This document shows positions 5,927-21,749 of a DNA stretch of 21,749 bases, one piece after another. This DNA is from a virus. Position 1 is the stretch's first letter. Each line of letters opens with the position of its first letter. The stretch covers positions 1 to 21,749 of IMG/VR virus record IMGVR_UViG_3300034093_005458; one strand, written 5' to 3'. The position numbers were made by a program, and so were the translations under genes. The notes beneath the pieces are model-generated. The model was not told the DNA's origin. It was given only the letters and a program-made list of their open reading frames with translations, and made no database searches.

Positions 5927-8900
5927 ATGTCGAACCAAAAAATAACTCAATTACGTACTATATCCATAGGGGAAGTTAACCCGGGCGATGTTATTCCAAT
6001 TGTAGATAAATCGGAAATAACAAGTCCAACCGGTGAAACAAAACATGTACTGATTAACCAATTGGTTGATTATGTTGCTTCGGCAAGTCTCAATATAGGA
6101 ATACCACACCAAGCATTCCACTCTCCAAACGCACTGTTTTTCGACGAATCTTATATTCCAAATGGTAATATAAACGGGTATTGCTATGGAAAAGCCCCAA
6201 AAATAGGTGAAAATTTTACGTTAGCAGTCAGAGGGTTTGTACCATCTACGAGTACAATTTCTCCATATGAAAGAGTTGTATTTGGTGTTAGTAACTCTAT
6301 AACACAGTCGATTGGACAAGCAAATTCTGCGTATATTGCAATCGTAAATAACGATCTCCTTGGGTTGGTTAGCGACGGTGTAAATTCCAAGATGGTATCG
6401 TTTCCAAGTTTTTCTTTATATTATCCCGACCAACCATTCTTTGCTGCATTCACCAAAGACTCATATGGAATATGTCAGTTGTATGTGAATGGTACACTTT
6501 ATGCAACCGCGTCGGCTGGTCCTACATCTATTACGGCATCATATGTTAACGTGGGTTGTGGACAAGCATCTCCGACCATATCAAATTTGAGTGTGGGAGT
6601 ATACGAAGCACATATCTTTTCATCTTCCCTGAGTGCAAGTGAAATAAAGACTTTATATTATGGTGGCATAACAAAGAAGACAATTGTTGCGTCATACAAA
6701 CCTAAAAATTTGAATCCCGGTCCATCCCAATGGTTGGACGACGTTGGGAATAATCATTTATTGATACCGGAATCTGGTGCACTTGCAACCAACCCCGGAA
6801 AAGAATTTCATTTAAGATTTACTGCAACTGGGTCATCTTATCTAGGCAACGGAACTAAGCGCAGTGTATTACCAGAAAATTATGTATTGACCGATGCATT
6901 TGTTTATTCACAAGGTTCTCCACTATTGTCAATTGGATCGTCTGCATCAATGTCTTCACCCGGTGACAGTGGCGTTGATTCTTATAACAACAACCGCGTT
7001 CCGTTGGTGAGTGCATCTTACAGTAGAAACAATTTGCCGCTGTTAGAATTGGGTGTAGCACACAAAGACCGAAGCTTGTATGTATTTTTTAGCTCAAGTG
7101 CAGCCCCGTGTACATTTAGCTTTGAGGGATATGTTTCTGAATATGGTCCTATGTTGTATTCTCCGCCGACGTTGACTCCAACTCCTACACCAACGGCAAC
7201 TCCTACACAAACTCCTACAAAAACACCAACGCCAACAGCAACCGCTACACCCACTTTAACTTCGACGAGTACACCTACATTAACTCAGACTCTTACGGCA
7301 ACTCTGGGTGTTACATCGACTCCGACTCCAACGACTACTGCAACTTCAACTCCAACGCTAACGGCTACGATTGAACCAGTCCCAACTTCAACTCCAACTC
7401 CAACGCTAACTTCAACACCAACTGTATCGGCTACTAGTGGATATGTTGCTCCAACACCAACGCCAACAGCAACAGCAACGCCAACAGCAACGCCAACAGC
7501 AACGCCAACAGCAACGAGTGAGCCAGTATCAACTCCAACCCCAACACCGACAACTGTACCATTTGAATTTACAGAATTGACTGCTATTGGCGCAACGAAA
7601 TGTTCTGACAATAACGGACTAACGGCGGGGTGGTCGTCAGCCGACAATATAACAGTTGACGTTGGTGTAAGTTGGACCCGAGAAGCTACAAGCGAAGACC
7701 CTGTCAGAATTAATTTGAGTTGGGCCGGTGATATCAATATTACAAGTGGCACGTCCGTTGCATATAATGCGCAGGGCGTTGGAATTGGTGGCAACACCGT
7801 GAGGTTTGCTAGAACAACCGACACACTTGACGTGGGCACAATAACAGTGTCTCATTCAGATGGTGCTAAGATGACAAACGCATCTGCTAGATCTTGGGCG
7901 GCAGAGACAAACGCTTTGGAATTGAATCTATCCGGTATAACTGGTACTTATAGATACAGAGTGCGTGATTGTACCACTCCGTCGAACGATGATTCTGCTA
8001 CTCAGTCGGCATCTACTCAAAGTATTTCAACTGGCGCGGTTGGTCCTACAAGAATTGCATTTATCGAAGTACTTTCGCCATTATCCACATTCTCTTCTCC
8101 GGTGTTGACTCCGGATTCATGCACACCGATCCCAACACCAACCGCGACTGCGGAACCGGTTCCGACCCCAACGCCGACAACAACTGGCCCGCTCCCAGAC
8201 GAAACACCAACTCCAACCCCAACGCCGACAACAACTGGCCCGCTCCCAGACGAAACACCAACTCCAACCCCAACGCCAACCGCGACTGCGGAACCGGTTC
8301 CGACCCCAACGCCGACAACTGCGGCATGTTATGAAGTTACTCTTGAAGTTGATCCAGTCGGAGCGGGAGTCATAGATTGGCAAAGTGGGTATGAACCAAA
8401 TTGCGGCGTAGATGGTTTCCATCCGAGCGATCCGGTCGTTGTGTCGTTGGTCTCCACAGATCCAGCATATGTATTTGATTCTTGGACCGTGACTGGTGCA
8501 ACAGGAAACACTGATACACCAGGTGAAGTGAGCTTCTATATGCCATCAAATGCGGTGACGGTAATAGCTAATTTCTCATTGATACCAAGTCCAACTCCAA
8601 CTCCAACACCCTCGGCAGCTCCAACTACAACCACGATTGCTCCCTCCGATTGCTATTATTACACGAATAATAGTATGAATAATTTCGCCGGAAGCGTTAC
8701 TCTATGCGGAGGCAGTACTGGATATGACGAAATAGCTATAGGCCAAGAGTCAAACTATTGCTTGTCGCTTCCGCCAGCCGATGGTTTTACCGCGACTACC
8801 CCATGTACCGCACCGGCAACTACAACAACGACAGAAGCTCCGACGACCACAACTGAGGCTCCAGCAACAACAACGACGACCGAAGCTCCCTCCGCTTGCT

Positions 8901-9058
8901 ATTATTATAGAAATGATAGTATGGATAATTTCGGCGGAAGCGTCACTCTATGCGGAGGTAGTACTGGATATGACGAAATAGCAATTGGCGAAACTTCAAA
9001 TTACTGCTTGTCACTTCCACCAGCCGCCGGATTTACTGAAAACGGATCTTGTCCTTAA
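5927..9058 (+). CDS. 1043-aa modular appendage protein: fibre N-module, LamG-like, Thr/Pro linkers, InlB-B-like and Cys-rich repeats
   Basis: Residues 1-50 ([18 protein letters not shown], then a TK-x4-NQLVDY strand) match the N-terminal module seen on many phage tail fibres. Residues 80-250 form a LamG-like domain ([33 protein letters not shown]). A further beta-rich region reaches about 410. Residues 411-544 are Thr/Pro linker; 545-730 is an unknown beta-rich domain; 733-799 is a second linker containing a 51-nt duplication. Residues 800-884 look like an InlB B-repeat or Listeria-type repeat ([29 protein letters not shown]). Two 54-residue four-Cys modules end the protein (about 908-960 and 989-1042), separated by an APTTTTEA-type linker. 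It is probably a long receptor-binding or adhesive fibre. Confidence 0.8.
7157..7558 (+). repeat. Thr/Pro-coding linker repeat
   Basis: About 134 residues, almost all Thr, Pro, Ala and Ser, with TPTPTATP- and TSTPTLT-type units. It includes a run of ACN/GCN/CCN codons near 7459-7520 that encodes repeated ATPT. It separates two beta-rich domains of the 1043-aa protein. Confidence 0.8.
8166..8267 (+). repeat. Two exact 51-nt tandem repeats in a linker
   Basis: 8166-8216 and 8217-8267 are identical; each encodes 17 residues including [11 protein letters not shown]. They are flanked by a further direct repeat: a block of about 44 bases encoding [14 protein letters not shown] occurs just before and again just after. 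The exact identity points to recent duplication. Confidence 0.85.
8617..8766 (+). repeat. 150-nt perfect dispersed repeat, copy A (four-Cys module)
   Basis: Bases 8617-8766 are identical to 12240-12389, in the appendage gene 3.6 kb downstream. The repeat covers the end of a Thr-rich linker and the first two thirds of the four-Cys module ([12 protein letters not shown], then TLCGG). Identity at silent positions implies recent gene conversion or duplication. Confidence 0.9.
8891..9052 (+). repeat. Four-Cys terminal module, second copy in the 1043-aa protein
   Basis: This encodes the variant [14 protein letters not shown] followed by [20 protein letters not shown] and a final Cys. The four Cys positions are the same as in the modules at about 8645-8806, 12271-12432 and 12619-12777. 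It is the most diverged of the four copies and closes the protein. Confidence 0.8.
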
Positions 9059-9353: not shown

Positions 9354-10409
9354 ATGATTAAAGATCGAATTTTATCCAGTCTTTCTAGTCAAAAAATAAG
9401 AATGGCTCAAATCGATCCGTTCAGTTACTGCAACGCCGGTTGCTGGTTTTGTCCTGTGAGATATACCCCAAATCCGACCGAAGCTAGGAAACATATGCCA
9501 ATTGAGCTATTTGAGAAAATAATAGCAAACATGGTCGAAGAAAAAAATAGGTCAGATGGAATTGTAGATCCGCGATTTGATTTCATCTATACTGCACACT
9601 ACAATGAAATTTTATTATACAAACATTTCAAAGAAATGGTATCTATATTACGGAAATATAAAATAAGAACCTTCGTGCTTTCAAACGGAATTCCACTTAC
9701 ACCCGACAAGACTGATATAATAAGAGAAAACGCCGATACCATCGTTGGAGTGTGCTTGAACACGCCAGCGTTTGACAGAGACACTTGGGGCAAACGCTCG
9801 GGTATGAATCCAAATTTATTTGATAAATTGATATCAAATATAAAATACGCCGAGGAAAATTTAAAAGTATTCACAACTAACGGGAAAAAACAACTTTCTA
9901 TTCAAATAAATGGTGTGAATAATAATAGCTTTTATGATAGCGGAGGAGCATTAGAAAAAGGTAAAAACTTTCCTATTGACATAGACTTAGACCCTGTAAA
10001 CGGAGAATTAAAAAAACAATATGATCTTTGCAAAGAGATGTTCCCCACGTTAAACGTGTATCCGGTAAATGCACTGATAGACAGAGCGGGTCTACTCAGT
10101 GATTTGGATATCATATCTAATAAAAAAACAATAGATAGTAAAATAAAAAAATCCGAAACCGAAGTGGTTGTTGGTTGTAACCACTCACATGAGGTGGGAG
10201 GTCGCCCATTTGGATGGTTGCATGTTAATGCTCTTGGGAAAGCGTTTTTATGTTGTAACGATTATAATTTTGATTACACCTTTGGGAGCTTTGAAACGAG
10301 TACACTGAGAGATTTCTGGATTTCCGACGAACACGTTGGTGTTATAGAAAAATCATACAAAGAAATTTGCAAAAACTGCTCGTCGGCCAAGTGGGGTCCA
10401 CCAACATGA
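9354..10409 (+). CDS. Radical SAM protein with SPASM-like C-terminus
   Basis: 351 residues. The CxxxCxxC cluster motif is C26-C30-C33 (CNAGCWFC) near the N-terminus and ligates the [4Fe-4S] cluster that cleaves S-adenosylmethionine. The middle is a TIM-barrel-like region (IRTFVLSNGIPL, TIVGVCLNTP). The C-terminal part has the SPASM pattern: a Cys in VVGCNHSH, GKAFLCCNDYNFDYTFGSF, TLRDFW, then CKNC. SPASM proteins modify peptides or sugars. An AAGG-like stretch 5-8 bases before ATG 9354 is one of the few Shine-Dalgarno-like signals here. The gene ends in ATGA overlap with a glycosyltransferase, so they are probably co-translated. A role in peptide or glycan maturation is inferred from context; the substrate is unknown. 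Confidence 0.8.
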   Translation: MIKDRILSSLSSQKIRMAQIDPFSYCNAGCWFCPVRYTPNPTEARKHMPIELFEKIIANMVEEKNRSDGIVDPRFDFIYTAHYNEILLYKHFKEMVSILRKYKIRTFVLSNGIPLTPDKTDIIRENADTIVGVCLNTPAFDRDTWGKRSGMNPNLFDKLISNIKYAEENLKVFTTNGKKQLSIQINGVNNNSFYDSGGALEKGKNFPIDIDLDPVNGELKKQYDLCKEMFPTLNVYPVNALIDRAGLLSDLDIISNKKTIDSKIKKSETEVVVGCNHSHEVGGRPFGWLHVNALGKAFLCCNDYNFDYTFGSFETSTLRDFWISDEHVGVIEKSYKEICKNCSSAKWGPPT

Positions 10410-11254
10410 GAAAACTTACAATCGGGATGGCCACATATGATGATTATGATGGTCTATATTTTACAATACAATCTATAAGAATGTATCACGCCGAAGTATT
10501 GGACGATATAGAGTTTGTAATTATTGACAACAATCCTGATGGTACACATTCAAAGGCTATAAAACATTTTACAAGTTCTATAAAACAGCCGGTTCAATAT
10601 ATTCCTTTCAACGAATATAAAAGTTCGTTCGTTAAAGGTCAGATATTTGATTATGCGAAAACTCCATATGTACTTGGAATAGACAGTCATGTTTTATTGG
10701 AACCAACTAGTATAAAAAAACTTATTGATTTTTATGAGTCAGGTTCCGACGAAGGAAACTTTCTACAGGGACCGTTGGTGTATGATAGCTTAAACCATAT
10801 TTCAACCCACTTCGATTTAACGTGGAGGGGCCATATGTGGGGAACGTGGGGAACCGATTCAAGAGGACACGATAAAAACGGTCCTCCGTTTGAAATACCT
10901 GCACAGGGCATGGGATTATATTCGTGTAGAAAAGATAGTTGGCTCGGATTTAATCCGTTGTTTCGGGGATTCGGAGGGGAAGAGGGGTATATACACGAAA
11001 AGTACCGCAAAGCTGGGAAGAAAACATTGTGTTTGCCATTTTTAAGGTGGATGCATAGGTTTGGTAGACCAAACGGAGTGCCATTTCCACTAACGATTGA
11101 GAACAAAATTAAAAACTATTTTATAGGGTTTGAGGAATTAAAACTTGATACTTCGCCTATATACGAACATTTTCTGAAAGAATCGAAGCAGACGCACGAA
11201 ACGTTGAAAAAATGGCATGATGATATTAAAAAAAGTATGTGTATAGCCGAATGA
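10406..11254 (+). CDS. GT-A fold glycosyltransferase (GT2 / polypeptide GalNAc-transferase-like D-S-H motif)
   Basis: ATG 10406 overlaps the preceding TGA (ATGA), giving 282 aa. The N-terminus KLTIGMATYDDYDGLYFTIQSI with DIEFVIIDNNPDG is classic GT2/GT-A nucleotide-sugar binding. The metal site is LGIDSHVLLEP at about residues 90-100: D-S-H in place of D-x-D, as in polypeptide GalNAc-transferases. Then come NPLFRGFGGEEGYIHEKYRKAGKK (acceptor/base region, GGEE) and LRWMHRFGRP, with spacing like the GGENxE and VGHxxR parts of those enzymes. There is no signal peptide or membrane helix, so it acts in the cytoplasm. The gene lies directly before a mucin-like appendage gene, making that protein an attractive acceptor. 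Specific sugar and acceptor are unproven. Confidence 0.75.
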   Translation: MRKLTIGMATYDDYDGLYFTIQSIRMYHAEVLDDIEFVIIDNNPDGTHSKAIKHFTSSIKQPVQYIPFNEYKSSFVKGQIFDYAKTPYVLGIDSHVLLEPTSIKKLIDFYESGSDEGNFLQGPLVYDSLNHISTHFDLTWRGHMWGTWGTDSRGHDKNGPPFEIPAQGMGLYSCRKDSWLGFNPLFRGFGGEEGYIHEKYRKAGKKTLCLPFLRWMHRFGRPNGVPFPLTIENKIKNYFIGFEELKLDTSPIYEHFLKESKQTHETLKKWHDDIKKSMCIAE

Positions 11255-11276
11255 TATAAAAAGCTATATATACTGA

Positions 11277-11284
11277 TATTTATG
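11277..11284 (+). promoter_or_regulatory. TATTTATG box before the 496-aa appendage gene
   Basis: TATTTATG ends five bases before the GTG at 11290, in a 35-base A/T-rich gap. It belongs to the recurring TATTTAYR set in this window. The ATG within it is followed at once by TCA CAG TGA, so it cannot start the gene. Confidence 0.2.
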
Positions 11285-11289
11285 TCACA

Positions 11290-12780
11290 GTGAGTAAACA
11301 TATACCAATTCATAGCTTTGATTCCCGCGACAACCCCGAGAGAATGGCATTCGGCGTTGTGGGAGAGATGCTGGGTGCGAATGATGGTTTTGCGTACGTA
11401 AAAAAACAATATGAGTCTAAGAATGTTGGTTGGATTTATATAGGCCCAGTACCGACGCCATCAAATACTCCAACTTTAACACCAACGTTGACAGCAACGG
11501 CAACTCCGACGCTCACGGCTACATCAACACCAACGTTGACTTCAACCTCAACGCCAACGTTGACAGCAACCCCGACACCAACGTTGACTTCAACCTCAAC
11601 ACCAACGTTGACAGCAACCCCGACACCAACGTTGACTTCGACATCAACACCAACGTTGACTTCGACATCAACACCAACGTTGACTTCAACCTCAACACCA
11701 ACGTTGACAGCTACGGAAACTCCAACTTTAACACCAACGTTGACAGCTACATCAACACCAACGTTGACAGCTACATCAACACCAACGTTGACAGCTACAT
11801 CAACACCAACGTTGACAGCTACGGAAACTCCAACTTTAACACCAACGTTGACAGCCACATCAACACCAACGTTAACAGCTACATCAACACCAACGTTGAC
11901 ATCGACGCCGCCGCCAACGTTGACAGCTACAGAAGCGCCGATTCCAACGCCAACACCTTCGGCAACCAATGCGTATATTCCGCCGACAACTACCACAACC
12001 GAAGCGCCAACAACAACGACCGAGGCACCAACAACGACAACGGTTGCTCCAACAACAACAACGACCGAGGCACCAACAACGACAACGGTTGCTCCAACAA
12101 CAACAACGACCGAGGCACCAACAACGACAACGGTTGCTCCAACTACCACAACCGAAGCTCCAACTACAACCACGATTGCTCCAACTACCACAACCGAAGC
12201 TCCAACTACAACCACGATTGCTCCAACTACCACAACCGAAGCTCCAACTACAACCACGATTGCTCCCTCCGATTGCTATTATTACACGAATAATAGTATG
12301 AATAATTTCGCCGGAAGCGTTACTCTATGCGGAGGCAGTACTGGATATGACGAAATAGCTATAGGCCAAGAGTCAAACTATTGCTTGTCAGAGCCGCCAT
12401 TTACCGATGGATTTACCGCGACTACCCCGTGCACCGCACCGGCAACCACGACAACCACAGTTGCTCCAACAACTACCACAGTTGCTCCAACCACGACCAC
12501 GGAAGCTCCGGTAACAACAACGGAAGCTCCAGTAACAACAACGGAAGAGCCGGTAACAACAACGGAAGAGCCGGTAACAACGACGGAAGAGCCGGTAACA
12601 ACGACGGAAGCTCCCTCCGCTTGCTATTATTACACGAATAATACTATGGATAATTTCGGCGGAAGCGTTACTCTATGCGGAGGCGGCATTGGATTTGACG
12701 AAATAGCTATAGGCCAAGAGTCAAACTATTGCTTGTCGCTTCCGCCAGCCGATGGTTTTACCGCGACTACCGCGTGTTAA
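11290..12780 (+). CDS. 496-aa mucin-like appendage protein with shared N-module and two four-Cys modules
   Basis: Starts at GTG 11290; no upstream in-frame ATG exists. Residues 1-52 are the shared N-terminal module ([20 protein letters not shown]), related to the proteins at 2635 and 12808. Residues 53-230 are almost pure [16 protein letters not shown] repeats, and residues 232-325 switch to [13 protein letters not shown] units. A four-Cys module covers about 328-381, a PVTTTEE linker 382-443, and a second four-Cys module closes the protein at C496. Thr is by far the commonest residue. The architecture (anchor, long extended stalk, small disulphide-capable heads) suggests a flexible virion fibre. 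The Thr-rich stalk is a plausible O-glycosylation target, with a glycosyltransferase gene on each side. Confidence 0.75.
11446..11977 (+). repeat. 24-nt-based tandem repeats coding TPTLTATS-type stalk
   Basis: The basic unit is 24 nt (8 residues). Three exact copies in a row occupy 11749-11820. A larger unit of about 108 nt is also duplicated: the block starting near 11713 recurs near 11821 with few changes. Such tracts are prone to length change. Confidence 0.85.
11983..12264 (+). repeat. 45-nt and 42-nt tandem repeats coding APTTTT-type stalk
   Basis: Two exact 45-nt units (12043-12087, 12088-12132; [15 protein letters not shown]) are followed by three exact 42-nt units (12136-12177, 12178-12219, 12220-12261; [14 protein letters not shown]). 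Exact copy identity indicates very recent expansion. Confidence 0.9.
12240..12389 (+). repeat. 150-nt perfect dispersed repeat, copy B (four-Cys module)
   Basis: Identical over 150 bases to 8617-8766 in the 1043-aa gene. After base 12389 the two copies diverge within the same codon region (SEPPFTDG here against SLPPADG), giving a sharp conversion boundary. Confidence 0.9.
12619..12777 (+). repeat. Four-Cys terminal module, second copy in the 496-aa protein (mosaic)
   Basis: The 5' part (SACYYY, MDNFGG) resembles the copy at 8891-9052. The 3' part, from the GACGAAATAGC stretch onward, is identical to about 75 bases starting near 8726 in copy A. The module is a mosaic of two parental copies. 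Confidence 0.8.
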
Positions 12781-12807
12781 GTTTTAATTTACATACGCCC
12801 AATCATT

Positions 12808-14013
12808 ATGCCAAGAGGATTGCCAATTCACAAAACACCAGAGAAAAAAGTATTCGGAATTATAGGAGAAGTTGTGTCTACAGACGAAGGTGAAGTATAT
12901 GCAAAAGAAACCAACGACACTCGTAATATAGGTTGGAATGAAGCACTGGCCTACTTACTAAGTCCAACGCCAACTGCAACTCCAACATTAACTCCAACTT
13001 CAACTCGCCCATTTATAGTCACACAAACTAGAAGTACACCAACTCCAACACCAACGCCAACTCGCACTCCCACACCAACATTACCGCCGTTCGTGGGACC
13101 AACTCCGACTCCAACACAAACGTCTACACTAACATCAACTCCAACTTTGACAGGTACACCGGCAGCATCCGCCGCGCCTGGTGCGACTCCAACACCAACT
13201 TCTACTGTATACTTCGATATTGGCGCAACCATAACTTGGTCAGTGGACCAGTTGGTTTCTCAGACCAACGGCGACGGCTATCTTGTCGGAGACATACTTA
13301 AAGCAAATTATGCTATAACAAACCAAGGTAATGTATCTAGCTTTGAAGTCAGAGTAAGAAGTGGAATTCCAGATCCATATGGTGGTGGATGGATAACAAT
13401 ATCTGGACCATCGTATACATACATCGCTCCAACGGCAGGATATTATCAGTTGGGCATATTGGTAAATTATGCCGACGGTAGGTCAATTGCGGTAGAATCA
13501 TCAGTGATAACCGTAGTGTCATTTGACAGACCGGTTGTCACAGTTAACCCCTCGAATGTGACGAGAGGAAAAGCAACGCTATCAACCATTTCTATTTCTG
13601 AAGGATTTGGCGGACTTGCTGCTGTAACAAGCTGGGGTTCAAATGGAGCATTTACATTTGAATCAAACACTCAAAGAGTTTGGGACACTTATTTAGAAAA
13701 TAATGTATCTGGGTTTGGAACTTTTTATGTGATACCATTTAAACGCTTGTCAAATGGTAGAGCCATTACCGGTATCTCCGTCCCAGTGAAAGTACAAAGA
13801 CAAACATATTATATTGCATACACCCTTGATCCAACAGGATATATAAGATTCTCATATTTAGACGCAGATGGTGTATCGGAAACACTTGATAGATATGGAT
13901 TGCCATATCAAATAATATCTCCAGCTTATTCAGATCCATGCGCATCGGAAGTGACACTGCTTGAACCGGGCGGTACCGGAAGAGCCGTATCGCTGTCCAC
14001 AATAGAGTGTTAA
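12808..14013 (+). CDS. 401-aa appendage protein with shared N-module, Thr/Pro linker and beta-sandwich C-terminus
   Basis: ATG 12808 (MPRGLPIHKTPEKKVFG). Residues 1-50 are the shared N-terminal module and align without gaps to the 57-aa protein at 2635. Residues 52-133 are a shorter Thr/Pro linker (TPTPTPTRTPTPTLP). From about 134 to the end the protein is beta-rich, with segments that look like two Ig-like folds (ITWSVDQLV, GDILKANYAITNQGN, YYQLGILVNYADG; then PVVTVNPSNVTRGKATLS, GTFYVIPFKRLSNG, ITGISVPVKVQ). It ends with a CASEVTLLEPGG segment. It is likely a virion appendage whose head differs from its neighbour's while the base is the same. The specific ligand is unknown. Confidence 0.75.
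   Translation: MPRGLPIHKTPEKKVFGIIGEVVSTDEGEVYAKETNDTRNIGWNEALAYLLSPTPTATPTLTPTSTRPFIVTQTRSTPTPTPTPTRTPTPTLPPFVGPTPTPTQTSTLTSTPTLTGTPAASAAPGATPTPTSTVYFDIGATITWSVDQLVSQTNGDGYLVGDILKANYAITNQGNVSSFEVRVRSGIPDPYGGGWITISGPSYTYIAPTAGYYQLGILVNYADGRSIAVESSVITVVSFDRPVVTVNPSNVTRGKATLSTISISEGFGGLAAVTSWGSNGAFTFESNTQRVWDTYLENNVSGFGTFYVIPFKRLSNGRAITGISVPVKVQRQTYYIAYTLDPTGYIRFSYLDADGVSETLDRYGLPYQIISPAYSDPCASEVTLLEPGGTGRAVSLSTIEC
12961..13206 (+). repeat. Thr/Pro-coding linker repeat
   Basis: This encodes about 82 residues of [20 protein letters not shown] and TPTLTGTP type. It is less regular than the linkers in the 496-aa gene, with no long exact tandem unit. Confidence 0.7.
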
Positions 14014-14030
14014 AAATTAATTATTATATC

Positions 14031-14059
14031 TTGACCGTTTGAAAAAAAACTGTCATATT
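14031..14059 (+). promoter_or_regulatory. Sigma-70-like promoter candidate before the GT60-like gene
   Basis: TTGACC (14031-14036), a 17-base A-rich spacer, then CATATT (14054-14059; four of six matches to TATAAT). The next gene starts at 14094, leaving an A/T-rich leader of roughly 28 bases. It could serve the three-gene sugar-transfer cluster. The match is moderate, and phage sigma factors may prefer other sequences. Confidence 0.3.
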
Positions 14060-14093
14060 TCTGTATATATAAGAGTAAAAATAATGGTTATAT

Positions 14094-15395
14094 ATGCAGA
14101 ACAATAAAATATTCATTCAAATTGCGGCGTACCGTGACCCACAGTTGGTCCCAACGATTCAGGATTGTATAGCTAATGCCAAGTATCCGGAGAATCTCCA
14201 CTTTTGCATAGCTTGGCAACATGGGCCAAATGAGAAAATAGACGAAATTGCTACGTTGCCGAATGTAACAATCATTGACATTCCATACATGGAAAGTAAA
14301 GGTGCTTGTTGGGCAAGAAACCAAATCCAACAGCGATATACGAACGAAGAGTACACGATGCAACTCGATTCTCATCACAGGTTTGTAAAAGACTGGGACG
14401 AGTTAATTATTGGGATGTATAAACAATTGCAAGAAATGGGCCATGCCAAACCGTTACTCACTGGTTATATTCCGTCGTTTGATCCGGATAATGATCCCAG
14501 TGCAAGAATCCAAACTCCGTGGAAAATGGACTTTGATAGATTCATACCGGAAGGTGCAATTTTCTTTTTGCCAGCGTCAATAGATGATTGGAAAGACCGC
14601 ACGTCTCCACTCCCATCCAGATTTTATTCCGCCCACTTTTGCTTTACCGGAGGAGAATTCTGTAAAGAAGTACCACACGATCCAGAATATTATTTCCACG
14701 GCGAAGAAATTAGTATCGCCGTCAGAGCATTTACTCACGGATACGATCTATTTCATCCACATAAGGTTATTGCTTGGCACGAATACACCCGTAAAGGAAG
14801 AACGAAACACTGGGACGATCATGTCGGTTCAAACGTCAATTTAGTAGAAGATAAAAAAGACTGGGGAGCTAGAAACAGTGAATGCCATGCTAGAAATCGC
14901 AAACTTTTCTCTATGGACGGAGAAAGTAGCTATTCTATCGAATGGGGACCGTATGGATTTGGAAACGTGAGAACGCTACGCGATTATGAAAAATACGCGG
15001 GTATATGTTTTAAAAAGCGCGGTATCCAACAAGAAACCGTCGATAAAAAGTATCCGCCGAATGATTGGAAAAAATACTCTTCCGAACAAGAATGGTTGAA
15101 ATCTTTCATTTCCATATTCAGACATTGCATCGACTTACAACCATTTCAAATTCCGGAAAAAGATTATGAATTCTGGGTCGTGGCGTTTGAAAAATCCGAT
15201 GGTACTTCGTTATTTAGAAAAGATGCCGATAAGGCAGAGTTGGACGCAATCGTCGCCGATGGATTGAATCCCAAGGGAGATAAATATATGAAACTCTGGC
15301 GTGAATTCAACTGCGAAGAGAAACCACACCATTGGGTCGTTTGGCCATATAGCAAATCTAAGGGATGGTGTGACCGCATCGTTGGGAATTTATAA
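14094..15395 (+). CDS. GT60-like glycosyltransferase (Skp1 / UDP-GlcNAc:polypeptide GlcNAc-transferase type)
   Basis: 433 residues. The N-terminal half carries the family signature in order: KIFIQIAAYRDPQLVPTI (1-22), CIAWQ (38-42), ESKGACWARNQIQ (67-79), YTMQLDSHHRFVKDWDELI (87-105, with the D-S-H metal site), and FCFTGGEFCKEVPHDP (182-197) followed by YYFHGEEISIAVRAFTHGYDLF (199-220). This matches the 'Glycosyltransferase (GlcNAc)' family, whose best-known member adds GlcNAc to hydroxyproline of Skp1 in the cytoplasm of Dictyostelium. The C-terminal ~170 residues are an extension I do not recognise. There is no signal peptide or membrane helix. The neighbouring Thr/Pro-rich appendage proteins are the obvious candidate acceptors. 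If Pro is the acceptor, a prolyl hydroxylase would be expected elsewhere in the genome. Confidence 0.8.
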   Translation: MQNNKIFIQIAAYRDPQLVPTIQDCIANAKYPENLHFCIAWQHGPNEKIDEIATLPNVTIIDIPYMESKGACWARNQIQQRYTNEEYTMQLDSHHRFVKDWDELIIGMYKQLQEMGHAKPLLTGYIPSFDPDNDPSARIQTPWKMDFDRFIPEGAIFFLPASIDDWKDRTSPLPSRFYSAHFCFTGGEFCKEVPHDPEYYFHGEEISIAVRAFTHGYDLFHPHKVIAWHEYTRKGRTKHWDDHVGSNVNLVEDKKDWGARNSECHARNRKLFSMDGESSYSIEWGPYGFGNVRTLRDYEKYAGICFKKRGIQQETVDKKYPPNDWKKYSSEQEWLKSFISIFRHCIDLQPFQIPEKDYEFWVVAFEKSDGTSLFRKDADKAELDAIVADGLNPKGDKYMKLWREFNCEEKPHHWVVWPYSKSKGWCDRIVGNL

Positions 15396-15403
15396 TCTAA
15401 AAG

Positions 15404-18400
15404 ATGCATATCGTATTGACTCAATTTTTTACTCCGAATGTATCATATGGAGAGTTCAGTAAAGCTATAAACGAAAAATATTGTCAAGAGAAAGGGTACA
15501 CGTATCATCTCGAATCGGATGAACAAAAGATTCGCTCTAATCTTGAGGGCCGTGCGGCAACATGGTATAAACCGAAACTATTGCTGGAAGTACTTGAGAC
15601 AAAAAATCCAGATTATGTAATGTTCTTGGACGCAGATGCAATTGTTTTGAACAATAACCATCGCGTTGAGGATTTCATTATAGAAGGAATTGATATTTTG
15701 GCGGCGGATGATCATGGACCAAGTAAATTAAACGCGGGAGTTTTCATAATTAAAAACACCCCGTGGGCAAAAGATTATCTTCAAAAATGGTGGGAGATTT
15801 GCAAAGAATACCCTGCGTATGAAAATGGTCTTTGGCATGATCAAACTTGTTTTGGGCTTTTGATGGATAGAACACCGGACTTGAGTTCACATGTAAAGAT
15901 CATAAACAACAACATTATAAATTCAAATCACGAGAATGATTATTGTTTCGTATTCCACGCATTTGCTTTCGGATCTTACAAAAATAGAACTATAGATTTG
16001 ATATATTACAGTAAGTTTGGATTAAAACCACCGACACATAGTGGAATGCCGTTAAATACACTGGCGGATTTGTATGCCGTTGACAAGGGTTCGCAAGGTC
16101 ATAACTATATAAACAGAGTGTATGAGAATTTGTTGGTACACACCAGGCACAACGTAAAAAAATTTGTTGAAATCGGGGTGTATCAGGGTAATTCACTTAG
16201 AATGTGGAGAAGCTTTTTTGATGGCAATACCACCGTTATTGGCGTGGACGCCGATGTGCCAACCGTCAAGCGGGGGATGGAAAATTGCGAACTTATTCTG
16301 TGCGATCAAAGAAGCGAATCCGACCTGCTAGTTTTAGCCGAGAAGATCAAGGGAGCCGATGTTATATTAGACGACGGTTGCCATAAAATGGCGGCACAAC
16401 AACGGAGTTTAGCATTATTGTTCAAATCGTTAAATGTCGGTGGAACATATATCATTGAGGATTTACATACCAGCATTGAATGCAAGAATCCACACAAAGC
16501 AGTGTTTGAATGGGGAGATCCCAATAAGACCACAACATTAGAGTTGCTTGATAACTACATGGCGACGGGTAAGATAAAGTCCGAGTATCTATCCGCCAAT
16601 GAAATTAAATATTTAGAACAGAACATTGAACGAGTTGAAGTGTTTAAATTGAGCAATGAAAGCATAACCAGTGTAATTACTAAAAAATTGGTTCCTGTTG
16701 AAATTTCATCGACCGCAAATGTCCCAGAAATAACAGACATCGAAAATACCGGAGAAAATACCGGAGAAAATATCGGTGTAGTATATCACGTATATTGCGT
16801 GGGTTTCTGGGAAGAATTGGTTAAGGAACAGTTACTTAAACTTAAAACCGTGGGGTTATACGACGCAGCTAGAGTGCTATGGGTAACTATCAACGATCTC
16901 AATAATAACAAGGCTAGAATTGATAGGATATTTGCAAAGTATCCAAAATTTAAGATCGAATATAGAAATGACAACGGCGCAGAAGCTCCTGGTATACAGA
17001 AGGTATATAATATATGCCAAGGAGATACCGACATGAAGGTATTATATTTTCACGCCAAAGGAGTAAGTAATACATACAGATCGGTCGTAGATAAACGAGA
17101 ATTATGTCACCGTAAAATAGAAGGTAGCAGGAGTTGGAGATTGTGTATGGAGCATTTCTTGGTAAAGGGTTGGAGAGATTGCATAAATCGGCTTGATTAT
17201 TATGATTTGGTTTGCACCACGCATACCGATGCTTGGGTGTGGGGCAACTTTTGGTGGGCAAATGCGGATTATATCCGTGCCCATCCATTTCCAGATGGTC
17301 AATCTAGGTGGTTTTATGAATACTGGATTACAATAAAGGATATAGTCCCCGAACCAAACGTTTTTGAATATTATCATTTCTCATATTTGGCGCTGATAAG
17401 CAAAATTCCAAGTTATTTGTATAATGGTACACTTGCAGACGGGCAGAAGATCAAATTGATATCTGCAACATATGGGGCATTGGATATACAACTTGACGAG
17501 GGATATCCAGTTCCACCCGATGATGCAAGTGATAAAATAGCAGACGTGACCGAGTACGTTCAAAAAAATTTAGAATCGAATGGATTTGTAGGATTTGACA
17601 AAAGAGTTCAATCACATTTTCCCGCTGGGTTCGACCCATTCTTCGGTGGGAGAAAACATTTGACTATAGATTTTAGCGTATCCGACCAAGAAGAGCATGC
17701 GTCGTTAACATTCAGAGATGCCGATGCCGATTTTAATCTTTATCAAAAAACTGTGGAGTTGCCACCGAGTAAAAGAATCAGTCGCGACAATTTAAAATCA
17801 AATAACGTCGTGAAAAAGAAAATTGCATTTGTATCTCCGATGGAATTTGAAAAAAACGGACAAAACATTCCGAATATGTATATAAAATGCATACGCCCGT
17901 TCTTTTTGACCGCGAAAAAGAATGTATTTTCAAATGATGAGAATTACGACGTGGAATTCATATTGCTTACAAACAGCAATTACACGTGCGATTTGGAGTT
18001 TGTTAAGACGATAAGAACATACGAAGAAACAACGGGATATTCATATGGATGCCTTACAAAACTTCTTCTTTTGGAGCATATACCGAATGAATATGATTAT
18101 ATATTCGTCGCGGATATAGACTCGATCTTTCCATCGGAAATGAAGCATGACGTATTTGCAGCGCCGTTTGTTTTCTTAGACCATTACTTTATGCCGCATT
18201 TAAATTCTATATTACAGATTGACACGGCCCATGTCACTATAGACGCGGACGTTTCAAACGAACGTTGGACAATGGATACATTTTTTGGAGGAACGTATAA
18301 AATGATGATGGACCTTAATAAGTTTGCAAGAGAACAGCACAACAAGTACCATGGAAAAATAACAGCAGGTCATGGATTCTACAGCAAATATCCAGGTGAA

Positions 18401-18679
18401 CTTTTTATATTAAAATATGTATTTGAAAATAAAATAGAACACAAGAGGCTGTCGGCTTGCTGTGAATTGAATTCGAATTCCGCAACAAAAAATTGGCATA
18501 TCGGGGAACTACCGAATAACTTGGAGAGTAAAAACGGACTGGGCCTTCAGTTCCTACAACATTATTCTCAGTTGCATCAAACAAAGATGTGCTTGGATAT
18601 ATTAGATGAAGTTGTTAAATACATTCTAGGACAACCATCGGCACTTCCAGAATACAAAGCGTACAAAGACAAACTATAA
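15404..18679 (+). CDS. Four-part sugar-modification fusion: GT34-like GT, sugar O-methyltransferase-like, GT-associated domain, GT6-like GT
   Basis: 1091 residues. Residues 1-205: GT-A domain with YVMFLDADAIVL (D-x-D), LNAGVFIIKNTPWAKDYLQKWW and HDQTCF, as in the GMA12/MNN10 (GT34) or related galactosyltransferase group. Residues 215-360: class I methyltransferase of the MycE-like sugar-O-methyltransferase type (YAVDKGSQGHNYI, FVEIGVYQGNSLRMWRSFF, GVDAD, DQRSE, VILDDGCHKM, GGTYIIEDLHTS). Residues 455-640: a GT-associated region I recall from other viral and bacterial proteins (VLYFHAKGVS, WGNFWWANADYI), function unknown. About 690-770: a small beta module (ATYGALDIQL, IADVTEYVQ, DPFFGGRKHL). 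Residues 803-1050: a second GT-A domain (YDYIFVADIDSIF, then MDTFFGG), possibly GT6-like. The start is ATG 15404, eight bases after the previous stop. It is probably a cytoplasmic glycan-building enzyme; sugars unknown. Confidence 0.75.
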   Translation: MHIVLTQFFTPNVSYGEFSKAINEKYCQEKGYTYHLESDEQKIRSNLEGRAATWYKPKLLLEVLETKNPDYVMFLDADAIVLNNNHRVEDFIIEGIDILAADDHGPSKLNAGVFIIKNTPWAKDYLQKWWEICKEYPAYENGLWHDQTCFGLLMDRTPDLSSHVKIINNNIINSNHENDYCFVFHAFAFGSYKNRTIDLIYYSKFGLKPPTHSGMPLNTLADLYAVDKGSQGHNYINRVYENLLVHTRHNVKKFVEIGVYQGNSLRMWRSFFDGNTTVIGVDADVPTVKRGMENCELILCDQRSESDLLVLAEKIKGADVILDDGCHKMAAQQRSLALLFKSLNVGGTYIIEDLHTSIECKNPHKAVFEWGDPNKTTTLELLDNYMATGKIKSEYLSANEIKYLEQNIERVEVFKLSNESITSVITKKLVPVEISSTANVPEITDIENTGENTGENIGVVYHVYCVGFWEELVKEQLLKLKTVGLYDAARVLWVTINDLNNNKARIDRIFAKYPKFKIEYRNDNGAEAPGIQKVYNICQGDTDMKVLYFHAKGVSNTYRSVVDKRELCHRKIEGSRSWRLCMEHFLVKGWRDCINRLDYYDLVCTTHTDAWVWGNFWWANADYIRAHPFPDGQSRWFYEYWITIKDIVPEPNVFEYYHFSYLALISKIPSYLYNGTLADGQKIKLISATYGALDIQLDEGYPVPPDDASDKIADVTEYVQKNLESNGFVGFDKRVQSHFPAGFDPFFGGRKHLTIDFSVSDQEEHASLTFRDADADFNLYQKTVELPPSKRISRDNLKSNNVVKKKIAFVSPMEFEKNGQNIPNMYIKCIRPFFLTAKKNVFSNDENYDVEFILLTNSNYTCDLEFVKTIRTYEETTGYSYGCLTKLLLLEHIPNEYDYIFVADIDSIFPSEMKHDVFAAPFVFLDHYFMPHLNSILQIDTAHVTIDADVSNERWTMDTFFGGTYKMMMDLNKFAREQHNKYHGKITAGHGFYSKYPGELFILKYVFENKIEHKRLSACCELNSNSATKNWHIGELPNNLESKNGLGLQFLQHYSQLHQTKMCLDILDEVVKYILGQPSALPEYKAYKDKL

Positions 18680-18682
18680 TAT

Positions 18683-21019
18683 ATGTTAATTAATACTATC
18701 AAAGACTGGAAGTATACTCAAGTGGATGACCGAGCACTAACCAATAGTGGATGTATCGTCGATGTTGGATGCTCGGGTTGGGACTGGTGTGGATTTTTCA
18801 TTGGAAAAAAACGAGTCATAGGAATTGATCCATATGAAAGTAAAAAAGATGGCGCGGAGTTCTTTGAGGGCTTGTTGGGACCGATCAATGGCCAATCTAG
18901 AGTAATCCGGAGGGGGCCGCACAGTCTCGCTGTGGGAGAGATGGACTTCGATGATGACAGCACTGTATTATTTCCTATGTTGAACTGGAAAACTTTCTGT
19001 AAAAAATTCAATATTGACAGAGTATCCGTATTAAAAATAAATATTGAAGGCGGAGAATATTCTTTGTTAAACAGTTTGGATGTTGACGATTTTAAAAAAA
19101 TAGACCAGATAGTTGTTAGCTTCCACGACTTCGAGAATCCAAAATTAAAAAACCTCACAGATGGGTCAATTGAACTATTGAAAAAATCTGGATTTGATAT
19201 ACAGCAAATTGAACCGACGTGGGGATGGTATTTGGCAGTAAAAACAAATCCCGAGCCAGAACTTGTACAAATTTTAACTGAACCTTTGAAAATCAAAACG
19301 ACAATGAATAAGAGTAAAACTACCATCGTGACCGGATTGTGGGATCTAGGTCGAGGAAATCTCACTGGCTGGGCCAAGCGTGATTTCCAACAATATAAAA
19401 ATAAGTTCTTCGAGCTTCTTAAAACGGACGTGAACTTGGTAATATGGATTCCAAGAGAATTAGAGGAAGACGTGTGGAAAATCCGCAGCAAAGAAAAAAA
19501 TAACACCCAGATATATTTTAAAGAGTTGAAGGATTTTGAAACGTGGTTTCCATTCTTCGGAGAGGTCCAACAAATCAGAAACAACGAACATTGGAAGAAT
19601 TTCGCCGGTTGGTTGGCGGAATCTCCGCAAGCGGCATTGGAATATTATAACCCGATGATGATGTGCAAGATGTTTATGGTAAATGATACTGCCATATTAA
19701 ATCCGTTTGATTCCAAGTATTTTTACTGGATGGATGGTGGCTTAACAAATACCGTGAATTCCGGCTATTTCACGCATGACGGTGTACTCGACAAGATATG
19801 TGAATACACAGAGTACCACAAGAAATTTACGTTTATATCCTATCCGTACGATGGCAATGATGAGATCCATGGTTTTGAGCGGAAAGCAATGGCACAGTAC
19901 TGCAACACAGACTTTGTAAAATATGTCGCCAGAGGCGGTTTCTGGGGTGGTAAGAAGGATATGGTGCATAAAATGAACGATGAATACTATGGTGTTCTAA
20001 AAGATACTTTGGCAAAGGGGTTGATGGGAGCAGACGAGTGTTTATTTACTATACTTTGCCATCGTTTTCCTAAAGAAATACAAAGATTTGAGATAGAGGG
20101 AAACGGATTGGTTTGGCCATTCTTTGAAATGATTAAAAATTTTAAAGTGCCGGAAGCAACTGGTGTAGTCTTATACAAAGAAGGCGACGTTGATGGTAAA
20201 GTTGCATATATTCAATCCAAGGAAGAAGTTGAAATGAATCGCAACGGTGACGGTGTTAATCTGTATGTGGTTACGTTCAATTCTCCACCGCAACTTCAAA
20301 TTCTACTTGATACTATCCAAGAATCCAATCCAGAATTACTCAACAAGACGACCAGATATCTAATAAACAATAGTATAGACAGAAGCACCGATGCGGCATA
20401 TGACGAGATTGCTGCAAAATATGAATTCACTCAAATAAAAGAAGGCAACTTAGGAGTTTGTGGTGCAAGATCATGGGCAGCAAAGCATTTCCATAACAGT
20501 AATGCCAAATACATTGTTTGGTTTGAAGATGACATGCTCATGGAAAAGACGCAACGGTTGTGTAGAAATGGATTGAATATGCATTGCGACAAATGGATGG
20601 AAAAGTGTATAGAAATCGTTGAAAATGAAAATCTTGACTTTGTAAAAATTTCATTCACCGAATTCTACGGCGATCACCACGAACAATGGGCTTGGTATAA
20701 CATACCGATGGATCTGAAACAGAAATATTTCCCGACCGGAGAGCACAGATTAACCGTCGAAAGGACGGGATGCTATAAAGGTTTATCCTATTTGATCGGG
20801 GAAGTTTATTATTCAAATTGGCCATCTTTGATGACCAAGGCCGGTAATTATAAAATATTCTTAGAAACCGAATATGCGCACCCGTTCGAGCAAACTATCA
20901 TGAGTCACACGTTCCAATTAACAAAAAAAGGAAGAATGCGTAGCGCGGTACTAATGGCGTCTCTCGTGAACCATCATCGTACATACCATTATTCCAAGGA
21001 AATAAGAAAAGAGTGTTAA
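18683..21019 (+). CDS. Three-part fusion: FkbM-like methyltransferase, HtrL/YibB-like domain, GT2-like glycosyltransferase
   Basis: 778 residues, starting three bases after the previous stop. Residues 20-190: methyltransferase with VDVGCSGWDW, VIGIDPYE and the FkbM-type VLKINIEGGEYSLLNSL, followed by VVSFHDF. Residues 210-480: similar to the HtrL/YibB family (TTIVTGLWDLGRGN, a Y-x2-F-x2-LL helix, LVIWIPREL, YYNPMMMCKMFMVNDT, YFYWMDGGL). That family is linked to enterobacterial LPS-core loci, and its exact reaction is unclear. Residues 523-730: GT2-like domain (NLYVVTFNSPPQLQILLDTI, EGNLGVCGARSWAA, YIVWFEDDMLM with E-D-D metal site). No signal peptide or membrane helix is seen. With the two genes before it, this forms a contiguous sugar-transfer block. 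FkbM proteins methylate sugar or polyketide hydroxyls, so the product may be a methyl-capped glycan. Confidence 0.75.
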   Translation: MLINTIKDWKYTQVDDRALTNSGCIVDVGCSGWDWCGFFIGKKRVIGIDPYESKKDGAEFFEGLLGPINGQSRVIRRGPHSLAVGEMDFDDDSTVLFPMLNWKTFCKKFNIDRVSVLKINIEGGEYSLLNSLDVDDFKKIDQIVVSFHDFENPKLKNLTDGSIELLKKSGFDIQQIEPTWGWYLAVKTNPEPELVQILTEPLKIKTTMNKSKTTIVTGLWDLGRGNLTGWAKRDFQQYKNKFFELLKTDVNLVIWIPRELEEDVWKIRSKEKNNTQIYFKELKDFETWFPFFGEVQQIRNNEHWKNFAGWLAESPQAALEYYNPMMMCKMFMVNDTAILNPFDSKYFYWMDGGLTNTVNSGYFTHDGVLDKICEYTEYHKKFTFISYPYDGNDEIHGFERKAMAQYCNTDFVKYVARGGFWGGKKDMVHKMNDEYYGVLKDTLAKGLMGADECLFTILCHRFPKEIQRFEIEGNGLVWPFFEMIKNFKVPEATGVVLYKEGDVDGKVAYIQSKEEVEMNRNGDGVNLYVVTFNSPPQLQILLDTIQESNPELLNKTTRYLINNSIDRSTDAAYDEIAAKYEFTQIKEGNLGVCGARSWAAKHFHNSNAKYIVWFEDDMLMEKTQRLCRNGLNMHCDKWMEKCIEIVENENLDFVKISFTEFYGDHHEQWAWYNIPMDLKQKYFPTGEHRLTVERTGCYKGLSYLIGEVYYSNWPSLMTKAGNYKIFLETEYAHPFEQTIMSHTFQLTKKGRMRSAVLMASLVNHHRTYHYSKEIRKEC

Positions 21020-21060: not shown

Positions 21061-21749
21061 ATGAACACTAAATTACATTTCGGGATGGAGTTGACAGAAA
21101 CAGAAATCGATGCAAATTATCAATATTTCATCGAATTCTTGAAAGAAAGTTTTTCCGGCGAAAGACTGGAAAAGCTTTTGGTTATGTACAGTGAAGAGAA
21201 TATGGGGATGCAATTGGCACTTGCACCAGCATCGACAAGAATGAATTTCCACTGCGCTTGGCCGGGTGGATATATTCAACACGTTATGCACGTCGAAAAA
21301 GCTTCCAGAGGCGTCGTGAAACTTTATTCTGCCATTAACGGTACAGTAGATTTTACGGACGAGGAGAGAATTTTTGCCGCATTGCACCACGACTTGGGAA
21401 AATTGGGCGACGATACCGGCCCTCAATACATCAGAAATGATAGCGACTGGCACGTTAAGAATCGCGGTGAGATTTATAAAATGAATCCAGCACTCCAATA
21501 TATGAAAGTTCCCGACCGTGCATTGTATATGTTGCAGCGGCATAATATAAGTGTGACATGGAAAGAAACACTGGGGATCAAGCTTGCCGACGGTCTATAT
21601 GACAAAGCGTCTGAAGAATATTTTATGTCGCATAATCCAGATAGAAACTTGAAAACAAATCTTCCGTATATTATACACGTATCCGACTTGTTGTCATGTA
21701 GAGCAGAAAGTGATGAGTGGAAAGCTTATAATACAGGTGACACCGGTAC
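21061..21749 (+). CDS. HD-domain phosphohydrolase-like phage protein (3' end outside window)
   Basis: ATG 21061; the frame stays open to the window edge, giving 229 residues of an incomplete protein. HD-superfamily residues are visible: the helix PGGYIQHVMHVEKA (His 74 and 77), AALHHDLGKLGD with the His-Asp pair at 110-111, and the late Asp in IIHVSDLLSCR (209). Between them is the WHVKNRGEIYKMN, KVPDRALYMLQRH and LADGLYDKASEEYFMS series that I associate with a conserved HD protein of T4-like phages. HD enzymes hydrolyse phosphoester bonds of nucleotides. Here a nucleotide or cyclic-nucleotide phosphohydrolase is plausible, but the substrate is unknown. A perfect hairpin stands immediately before the ATG. 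Confidence 0.8.
   Translation, partial: MNTKLHFGMELTETEIDANYQYFIEFLKESFSGERLEKLLVMYSEENMGMQLALAPASTRMNFHCAWPGGYIQHVMHVEKASRGVVKLYSAINGTVDFTDEERIFAALHHDLGKLGDDTGPQYIRNDSDWHVKNRGEIYKMNPALQYMKVPDRALYMLQRHNISVTWKETLGIKLADGLYDKASEEYFMSHNPDRNLKTNLPYIIHVSDLLSCRAESDEWKAYNTGDTG

Follow-up and report, generated by a model that had tools for sequence, protein, structure and literature searches.

Within the GT60 family of glycosyltransferases (GTs), the Trypanosoma cruzi enzyme forms GlcNAc-alpha-O-Thr (GlcNAc, N-acetylglucosamine) on mucins (PMC9472816), and Toxoplasma Gnt1 acts on a hydroxyproline of Skp1 (PMC6939170). Viruses also build protein-linked glycans. In the chlorovirus PBCV-1, a three-domain GT/GT/methyltransferase protein builds and O-methylates the glycan of the capsid protein in the cytoplasm (PMC7826918), mycobacteriophages are known to carry glycans on capsid and tail-tube proteins (quoted in PMC12619734), and the authors describing the isolated phage XacN1 report at least two glycoproteins. 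That phage GTs possibly glycosylate the phage's own proteins is already in print (PMC5852040). No title among the literature matches listed concerned the glycosylation of Thr/Pro stalks by phage enzymes. Here we describe a virus fragment of 21,749 b from IMG/VR (record IMGVR_UViG_3300034093_005458; the whole stretch is called the window below), in which genes for long, Thr-rich stalk proteins stand among genes for GTs and methyltransferases. Judging from sequence comparison and a structure model, these genes probably form an O-glycosylation cassette with which the phage modifies mucin-like fibres of its own. This is the best supported of the readings considered, the support being comparative. 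A preliminary description of the sequence had proposed that enzymes of the phage glycosylate the Thr-rich stalks it encodes, and the proposal is strengthened by the predicted structure of the GT60 enzyme, by the adjacency of stalk genes to GTs of two families, and by four bacterial loci in which a GT60 gene and a stalk gene stand together.

All main genes of the window lie on the + strand, in the order LamG/Thr-Pro stalk protein, small genes (a metallopeptidase match among them), PhoH, and a block of stalk and enzyme genes. The four stalk genes are interleaved with genes for a radical SAM/SPASM enzyme, a GT2, a GT60 and two GT/methyltransferase fusions, and every stalk protein and enzyme of the preliminary description was found where it had been placed. 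The first stalk protein (1-2367, 5' end missing) is a LamG-domain, virion-type protein whose Thr/Pro stalks span 481-645 and 1213-2031; it matches PF13385 (8.6e-28) and phrog_8510, 'virion structural protein' (6.3e-17). The second (5927-9058) has an N-terminal domain with a weak LamG match (PF13385, 0.00035, below cut-off), stalk tracts at 7112-7600, 8063-8347 and 8759-8908, and two Cys modules. The third (11290-12780) combines an anchor domain with Thr-rich stalks of 291 and 77 amino acids (aa) and two Cys modules, while the fourth (12808-14013), directly upstream of the GT60 gene, consists of an anchor domain, a Thr/Pro stalk (12937-13224) and a tip domain. The Thr/Pro(/Ser) tracts of these proteins contain 134, 109, 170 and 31 Thr residues, respectively (444 in total), tandem DNA repeats overlap seven of the eight Thr/Pro tracts, and the proteins thus show the long, tandem, Thr/Pro/Ser-rich tracts of mucin-type stalks. 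A small Cys-bearing module beginning CYYY occurs in four copies (window positions 8651, 8897, 12274 and 12622) and is common to two of the stalk proteins, which suggests that tips may be exchanged between them.

The gene at 14094-15395 encodes a GT60 enzyme (PF11397, 1.5e-72; phrog_24687, 5.1e-177), a putative polypeptide-type HexNAc-transferase (HexNAc, N-acetylhexosamine) and the proposed initiator of Thr O-glycosylation, which scores 245.4 bits against a PF11397 cut-off of 21. The motifs DSH (D92-S93-H94), HGEE and HEY are invariant in all 24 aligned GT60 sequences; both GT27 and GT60 carry DxH in place of DxD (PMC7185993). A sequence-profile search with GT60 found no PDB chain at E<=1. The AlphaFold model of the window enzyme (pLDDT, the predicted local distance difference test score, 90.1) was re-aligned to the 1000 top chains from Foldseek, and the best 29 PDB entries were all polypeptide GalNAc-transferases (GalNAc, N-acetylgalactosamine), with Z scores of 22.6-19.4, followed by SpsA at Z 16.2. 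The best alignment (Z 22.6) spans 279 residues at 3.4 A with 11% identity. As modelled, the fold is polypeptide-transferase-like. Membership of GT27 itself was considered and rejected, as PF11397 is the sole Pfam family matched at E<=0.01 and the protein has neither a GT27 sequence match nor a C-terminal lectin domain.

The genomic company of GT60 was surveyed in viral_contigs, where the best 80 of 210 relatives were kept, the loci being picked by similarity to the window. They comprise clade A, with 31 loci at >=69% identity, and clade B, with 49 loci at 59-67%. A stalk gene was counted as adjacent when it lay within 500 b of GT60, and the remaining genes of these loci, stalk genes excepted, served as the background because PhoH, the control marker, gave only 3 viral loci. 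In clade A a stalk gene adjoins GT60 in 30 of 31 loci, against 4.7 +/- 1.9 expected; in all 30 clade A loci with at least 1 kb of upstream sequence, a stalk gene ends within 500 b of GT60, with a small open reading frame (ORF) between the two in five. A whole-contig rank test, which treats contigs as independent, gave p=4e-6 in clade A (13 contigs) and p=0.36 in clade B (3 contigs). The protein upstream of the clade A GT60 begins with a short anchor domain in 23 loci, a LamG-type head in 5 and another head in 2 (one lineage), all with a stalk; text-rule sorting placed an N-terminus like that of the 5927-9058 protein ahead of GT60 in loci L005, L022 and L026-L028. The gene after GT60 belongs to 11 families among the 31 loci. 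The constant partner of the clade A GT60 is the stalk, and the remaining enzyme set varies.

Searches that started from the anchor domain led back to the same loci. A DNA pattern drawn from the clade A anchors had 17 matches in 2.9 million viral contigs, all encoding GT60; 16 of these are clade A contigs by name, and in the seventeenth a stalk ORF lies 267 b upstream of a more distant GT60. When the anchor alignment was used as query, 16 loci were obtained, every one a clade A contig by name. Both queries were built from GT60 neighbours and show linkage within this anchor type, not absence elsewhere. On a GT60 tree of 83 non-identical rows (viral, phage and bacterial), 34 are stalk-adjacent (<=600 b, all-ORF test), and the adjacency label changes 12 times, starred branches requiring at least 8 of these changes; shuffles gave 26.6. 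Four rows that are stalk-adjacent in the tree were left unused: the bacterial loci L242, L263 and L264 may reflect wrong-frame ORFs in GC-rich DNA or, for L264, masked sequence, and L243 resembles viral sequence within a metagenome-assembled genome (MAG).

A second GT family shows the same company. The GT2-type enzyme at 10406-11254 (PF00535, 1.4e-8) carries DxH, GxEE and WxHRF motifs and is proposed to be stalk-dedicated; the gene is present as first described, although the TTG start at 10367 of the earlier ORF is less likely than ATG 10406. For this survey the best 80 of 245 relatives were kept and the stalk definition was widened to Thr/Ser tracts. All three motifs are kept in 81 of 81 aligned sequences, the window included. 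Among relatives at least 58% identical, a Thr-rich gene was found no more than 500 b away in 38 of 44 loci, against 3.9 +/- 1.7 expected, and after clustering at 85% the stalk-adjacent clusters number 14 of 19 at >=58% and 3 of 21 below it. The usual gap between the upstream Thr-rich ORF and the GT2 start in the closer group is 14-17 b, and in 18 of these 44 loci that upstream ORF (118-215 aa, some cut at the contig end) consists of tract for at least 85% of its length. GT60 appears in only 1 of the 80 GT2 loci, so that the GT2 case is largely separate from that of GT60; a radical SAM gene likewise appears in 1 of 80, many of the loci being short. Pfam assigned GT2 to 29 of 29 family members, with a weak Glyco_transf_7C match in 5 of 29; the family also has a weak match to GalNAc-T7 (E 0.085), and the best solved sequence match of the family profile in the PDB was TarP (3.6e-7), with chondroitin synthase at 9.7e-4. 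At E<=1e-5 the phage collection contained no relative of either the GT2 or the radical SAM protein. In two loci (L284:9308-10837 and L296:9470-10780), a very short, near-pure Thr/Ser/Pro protein directly precedes a lone GT2, with opposite-strand genes after; the pair comes after genes read as fibre genes.

The pairing extends to bacterial chromosomes. A genome scan for GT60 yielded 30 bacterial loci, of which 22 were inspected; matches to PF11397 in two sampled orders occurred in 7/390 and 16/396 genomes and were mostly weak. Nine Bacteroidota GT60 loci were examined (L235, L237, L239, L241, L245 and L257, plus L383-L385 from order-level searches). In four, a gene divergent from the adjoining GT60 encodes a twin-arginine-like start, recognised by eye, and a Thr/Pro/Ser tract of 97-219 aa: Jiulongibacter sediminis (L241:7960-15157), a Saprospiraceae MAG (L235:8507-13089), a Bacteroidia MAG (L237:2687-6582) and an order-mate (L383:4887-9449). 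A gene for an HtrL-GT2 protein lies downstream in three of the four, and in L241 and L383 a second GT60-like gene adjoins the stalk gene. Elsewhere, in L385:7674-12718, GT60 stands, to judge by eye, beside a secretion protein and an ABC exporter that carries a peptidase domain, which may point to a glycosylated secreted peptide, and in L246-L261 the GT60-like genes of Burkholderia, Cupriavidus and Trinickia adjoin a secreted-type protein, several with type VI secretion-like genes (by eye). Three records of the phage collection carry this GT60, namely XacN1, CM1 and RAS14. ORF334 of XacN1 is a relative of the window GT60 at 51% identity; XacN1 and RAS14 combine GT60 with a carbamoyltransferase and an HtrL-GT2, and in the next gene block of RAS14 a 3138-aa protein contains a Thr/Pro tract of about 61 aa. 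In Microcystis phage Mel-JY01, a fibre-like ORF with Gly-Thr-Ser repeats (L267:2-3049, partly annotated on the other strand) lies near a 1227-aa protein annotated as methyltransferase FkbM (L267:4750-8430) that resembles the GT/methyltransferase fusions; this isolated phage may pair glycan enzymes with a further type of stalk.

Several observations weigh against a general link between these enzymes and stalks. Of the 49 clade B loci, 1 has a stalk gene at most 500 b from GT60, below the 5.1 +/- 1.9 expected, and any Thr-rich gene in the fetched flank was seen in only 24 of the 49. Among the 46 clade B loci with 1 kb upstream the counts are 1 at 500 b and 8 within 3 kb, and a limit of 600 b admits 5 of the 49 (L036, L038, L064, L079 and L081). 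Within clade A, the 0.5 kb upstream of GT60 in locus L025 contains a 76-aa ORF that is not a stalk, and the 32.6-kb contig of L025 is without a stalk gene. GT2 relatives below 58% identity have an adjacent Thr-rich gene in 3 of 36 loci, the profile alignment of GT60 with GT2 was not significant (probability 7.8), and the HtrL-GT2 gene adjoins a stalk in 16 of 36 loci against 10.5 expected, a modest enrichment too weak to rely on. Five Bacteroidota GT60 loci have no stalk (L239, which ends at GT60, and L245, L257, L384 and L385), and the 49 kb read of XacN1 held no credible Thr/Pro stalk, the one match being an other-frame ORF inside an annotated endonuclease gene. The clade limit was set after the adjacency pattern had been seen, although the tree supports the split (100/98), and the loci were selected by similarity to the window. 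Clade A members share ancestry and include some near-identical contigs, so inheritance accounts for part of the adjacency; given the varied heads and downstream genes, it appears not to account for all of it. The preliminary description had stated that it would be refuted if GT genes were commonly found without any Thr/Pro stalk gene, and this applies in part, to clade B and to GT2 relatives below 58% identity. Because the more distant relatives of both GT60 and GT2 mostly are without an adjacent stalk, stalk pairing is, on these comparisons, a property of particular clades and not of whole GT families.

An unlikely alternative, though the strongest of those considered, is that the cassette glycosylates other virion proteins (capsid, tail tube or fibre tips), the Thr/Pro tracts serving simply as flexible linkers. 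In its favour, the cassette is retained by GT60 relatives that have no stalk beside them, XacN1 has reported glycoproteins in spite of the stalk-free 49 kb, and the mycobacteriophage glycans are precedents on capsid and tail tube (PMC12619734). Linkers would hardly account for repeated Thr-rich adjacency with unrelated heads, including proteins that are nearly tract and nothing else. GT60 may serve other proteins too, given XacN1, alongside the stalk role favoured here.

Somewhat less probable again is that the enzymes act on the lipopolysaccharide or capsule of the host, altering its surface glycans so as, for instance, to keep other phages out, and sit near fibre genes only because both are host-interaction cargo of the tail region. 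The HtrL_YibB, GT34, FkbM and GT2 domains also occur in surface-polysaccharide loci, a paper on Acinetobacter lipooligosaccharide (LOS) loci reportedly names YibB, and in a related 297-kb contig (G011, below) the cassette stands 5' of a baseplate gene. Such a role predicts no preference for Thr-rich neighbours, whereas one was seen in both surveys (30/31 and 38/44 against 4.7 and 3.9), and it is hard to reconcile with a lone GT2 behind a short, near-pure Thr/Ser/Pro protein or with the polypeptide-transferase-like fold modelled for GT60. It also fits poorly with the lack of membrane anchors in nine window proteins; the earlier claim that membrane helices are missing agrees with a simple Kyte-Doolittle scan, used in place of a predictor, in which the maximum over 19-residue windows was 1.31. 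Glycosylation of modified bases in phage DNA, which some phage GTs perform (PMC12619734), is very improbable here, as the predicted GT60 structure is polypeptide-GT-like, the cassette of bacterial chromosomes has next to it a stalk protein that appears to be exported, and no base-modifying enzyme was matched in the window, a fragment (whole genomes were not searched for one).

If the cassette does serve the phage's own stalks, the phage would make modular fibre proteins with an anchor or LamG-type head, a Thr/Pro stalk and a variable tip. In the host cytoplasm, GT60 would add a first HexNAc to stalk Thr, as GT60 does on T. cruzi mucins, and the DxH-type GT2 at 10406 would probably be a second, stalk-dedicated transferase. 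The two fusion proteins would extend and O-methylate the glycan, and the glycosylated stalks would be incorporated into virions. We infer the substrate, the order of steps, the donor sugars, the methylation of the glycan and the presence in virions from the genes; methyl-capping in particular would follow from the similarity of one domain to sugar O-methyltransferases.

That domain belongs to the first fusion (15404-18679), which comprises a GT34/DUF273-type GT (about aa 1-212), a Methyltransf_24 sugar O-methyltransferase-like domain (about aa 213-445) and two unassigned regions at aa 455-740 and 780-1091. The methyltransferase domain matches 8ia9, a demethylmacrocin O-methyltransferase (2.9e-12), and 3ssm (2e-7), and by sequence it resembles macrolide-sugar O-methyltransferases of the MycE/TylE kind. 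For aa 780-1091 no relevant Pfam or PDB sequence match was found and the structure model has a pLDDT of 33.6; a GT6 (ABO-like) likeness suggested for it by eye could not be confirmed. The second fusion (18683-21019), at the distal end of the GT60 cassette, joins an FkbM methyltransferase, HtrL_YibB and a GT2-like domain. In clade A 25 of 31 loci, and in clade B 38 of 49, have in the fetched flanks a gene matching its GT2-like C-terminal domain, nearly always with HtrL; HtrL-type matches of any kind near GT60 number 31 in clade A and 40 in clade B, some of them ambiguous as they also match the GT60 model. The radical SAM/SPASM enzyme (9354-10409; PF04055, 4.2e-10; PF13186, 1.5e-6) is a putative accessory, and a relative of it precedes GT2 in L269. 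The last ORF (21061-21747, 3'-open) matches phrog_5889 and has an HD-like motif (by eye); a relative also follows the 18683-type fusion in L083, and the ORF probably lies outside the cassette.

The source of the window is most likely a large contractile-tailed phage, because the 297-kb contig G011 resembles it, by eye, in the succession of small genes, a PhoH-like gene, a LamG-type stalk, anchor stalks and GT60, and carries a gene that matches baseplate or hypothetical proteins of isolates. This gene (233891-235843) is 44% identical to a protein of Microcystis phage Mel-JY01 and 36.5% to one of Flavobacterium phages immuto (annotated baseplate), the isolates' proteins being annotated as baseplate or hypothetical. 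By our own labels, an Hsp20-like gene and tail genes come after the cassette in G011. Stalk genes make up 5 of its 385 predicted ORFs, and three of them lie directly upstream of GT60.

A wider proposal, which we hold to be about evenly balanced, is that prokaryotes and viruses have a mucin system of their own, in which a cytoplasmic GT60 or DxH-type GT2 is paired with a Thr/Pro stalk and with exchangeable glycosyl-, methyl- and carbamoyltransferases, often ending in HtrL_YibB-GT2; phages would make bottle-brush fibres with it, and some Bacteroidota would use the same cassette on surface proteins exported by the twin-arginine (Tat) route. If true, mucin-type O-glycosylation would not be a eukaryotic invention, and phages would have swappable glycan coats. 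With a stalk-transferase pair conserved across dozens of viral contigs, many orphan phage GTs would gain a role and the glycosylated proteins of virions could be predicted. Glycosylation of stalks would bring a variable coat into the arms race between phage and host, and the cassette would provide soluble enzymes for producing mucin-like glycoproteins in bacteria.

Among described systems, the window enzyme shares the GT60 family with TcOGNT1 of T. cruzi, which acts on Thr of mucin-like acceptors, a first sugar being followed by further sugars (PMC9472816); a counterpart is proposed here. However, TcOGNT1 is a Golgi enzyme acting on GPI-anchored (glycosylphosphatidylinositol-anchored) mucins, whereas the phage protein appears to be soluble and stands beside virion-type stalks. 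The GT27 polypeptide GalNAc-transferases of mucin-type O-glycosylation offer the nearest solved fold and share the DxH motif, but they form another CAZy family, are eukaryotic, have an added lectin domain and show very low identity. The window GT2 family, with DxH, GxEE and WxHRF, resembles the GT2-CHS/GT7/GT27/GT60 group of GT-A enzymes, although its best solved match, TarP, is a GlcNAc-transferase and the acceptor is not readable from sequence. Chlorovirus PBCV-1 A064R and A111/114R are likewise virus-encoded multi-domain GT/methyltransferase and GT fusions (PMC7826918), but PBCV-1 is an algal virus, and its N-glycan is made on the capsid protein by other GT families, without a Thr/Pro stalk. 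Mycobacteriophages and XacN1 are also phages with their own GTs, and they have glycosylated proteins; the mycobacteriophage glycans sit at capsid and tail-tube termini and XacN1 is without an identified mucin-like acceptor, whereas a stalk acceptor is proposed for the window. The window encodes its own GTs, as these viruses do, and we think it probable from its genes that it represents virus-encoded virion glycosylation with a mucin-type acceptor, new in that acceptor.

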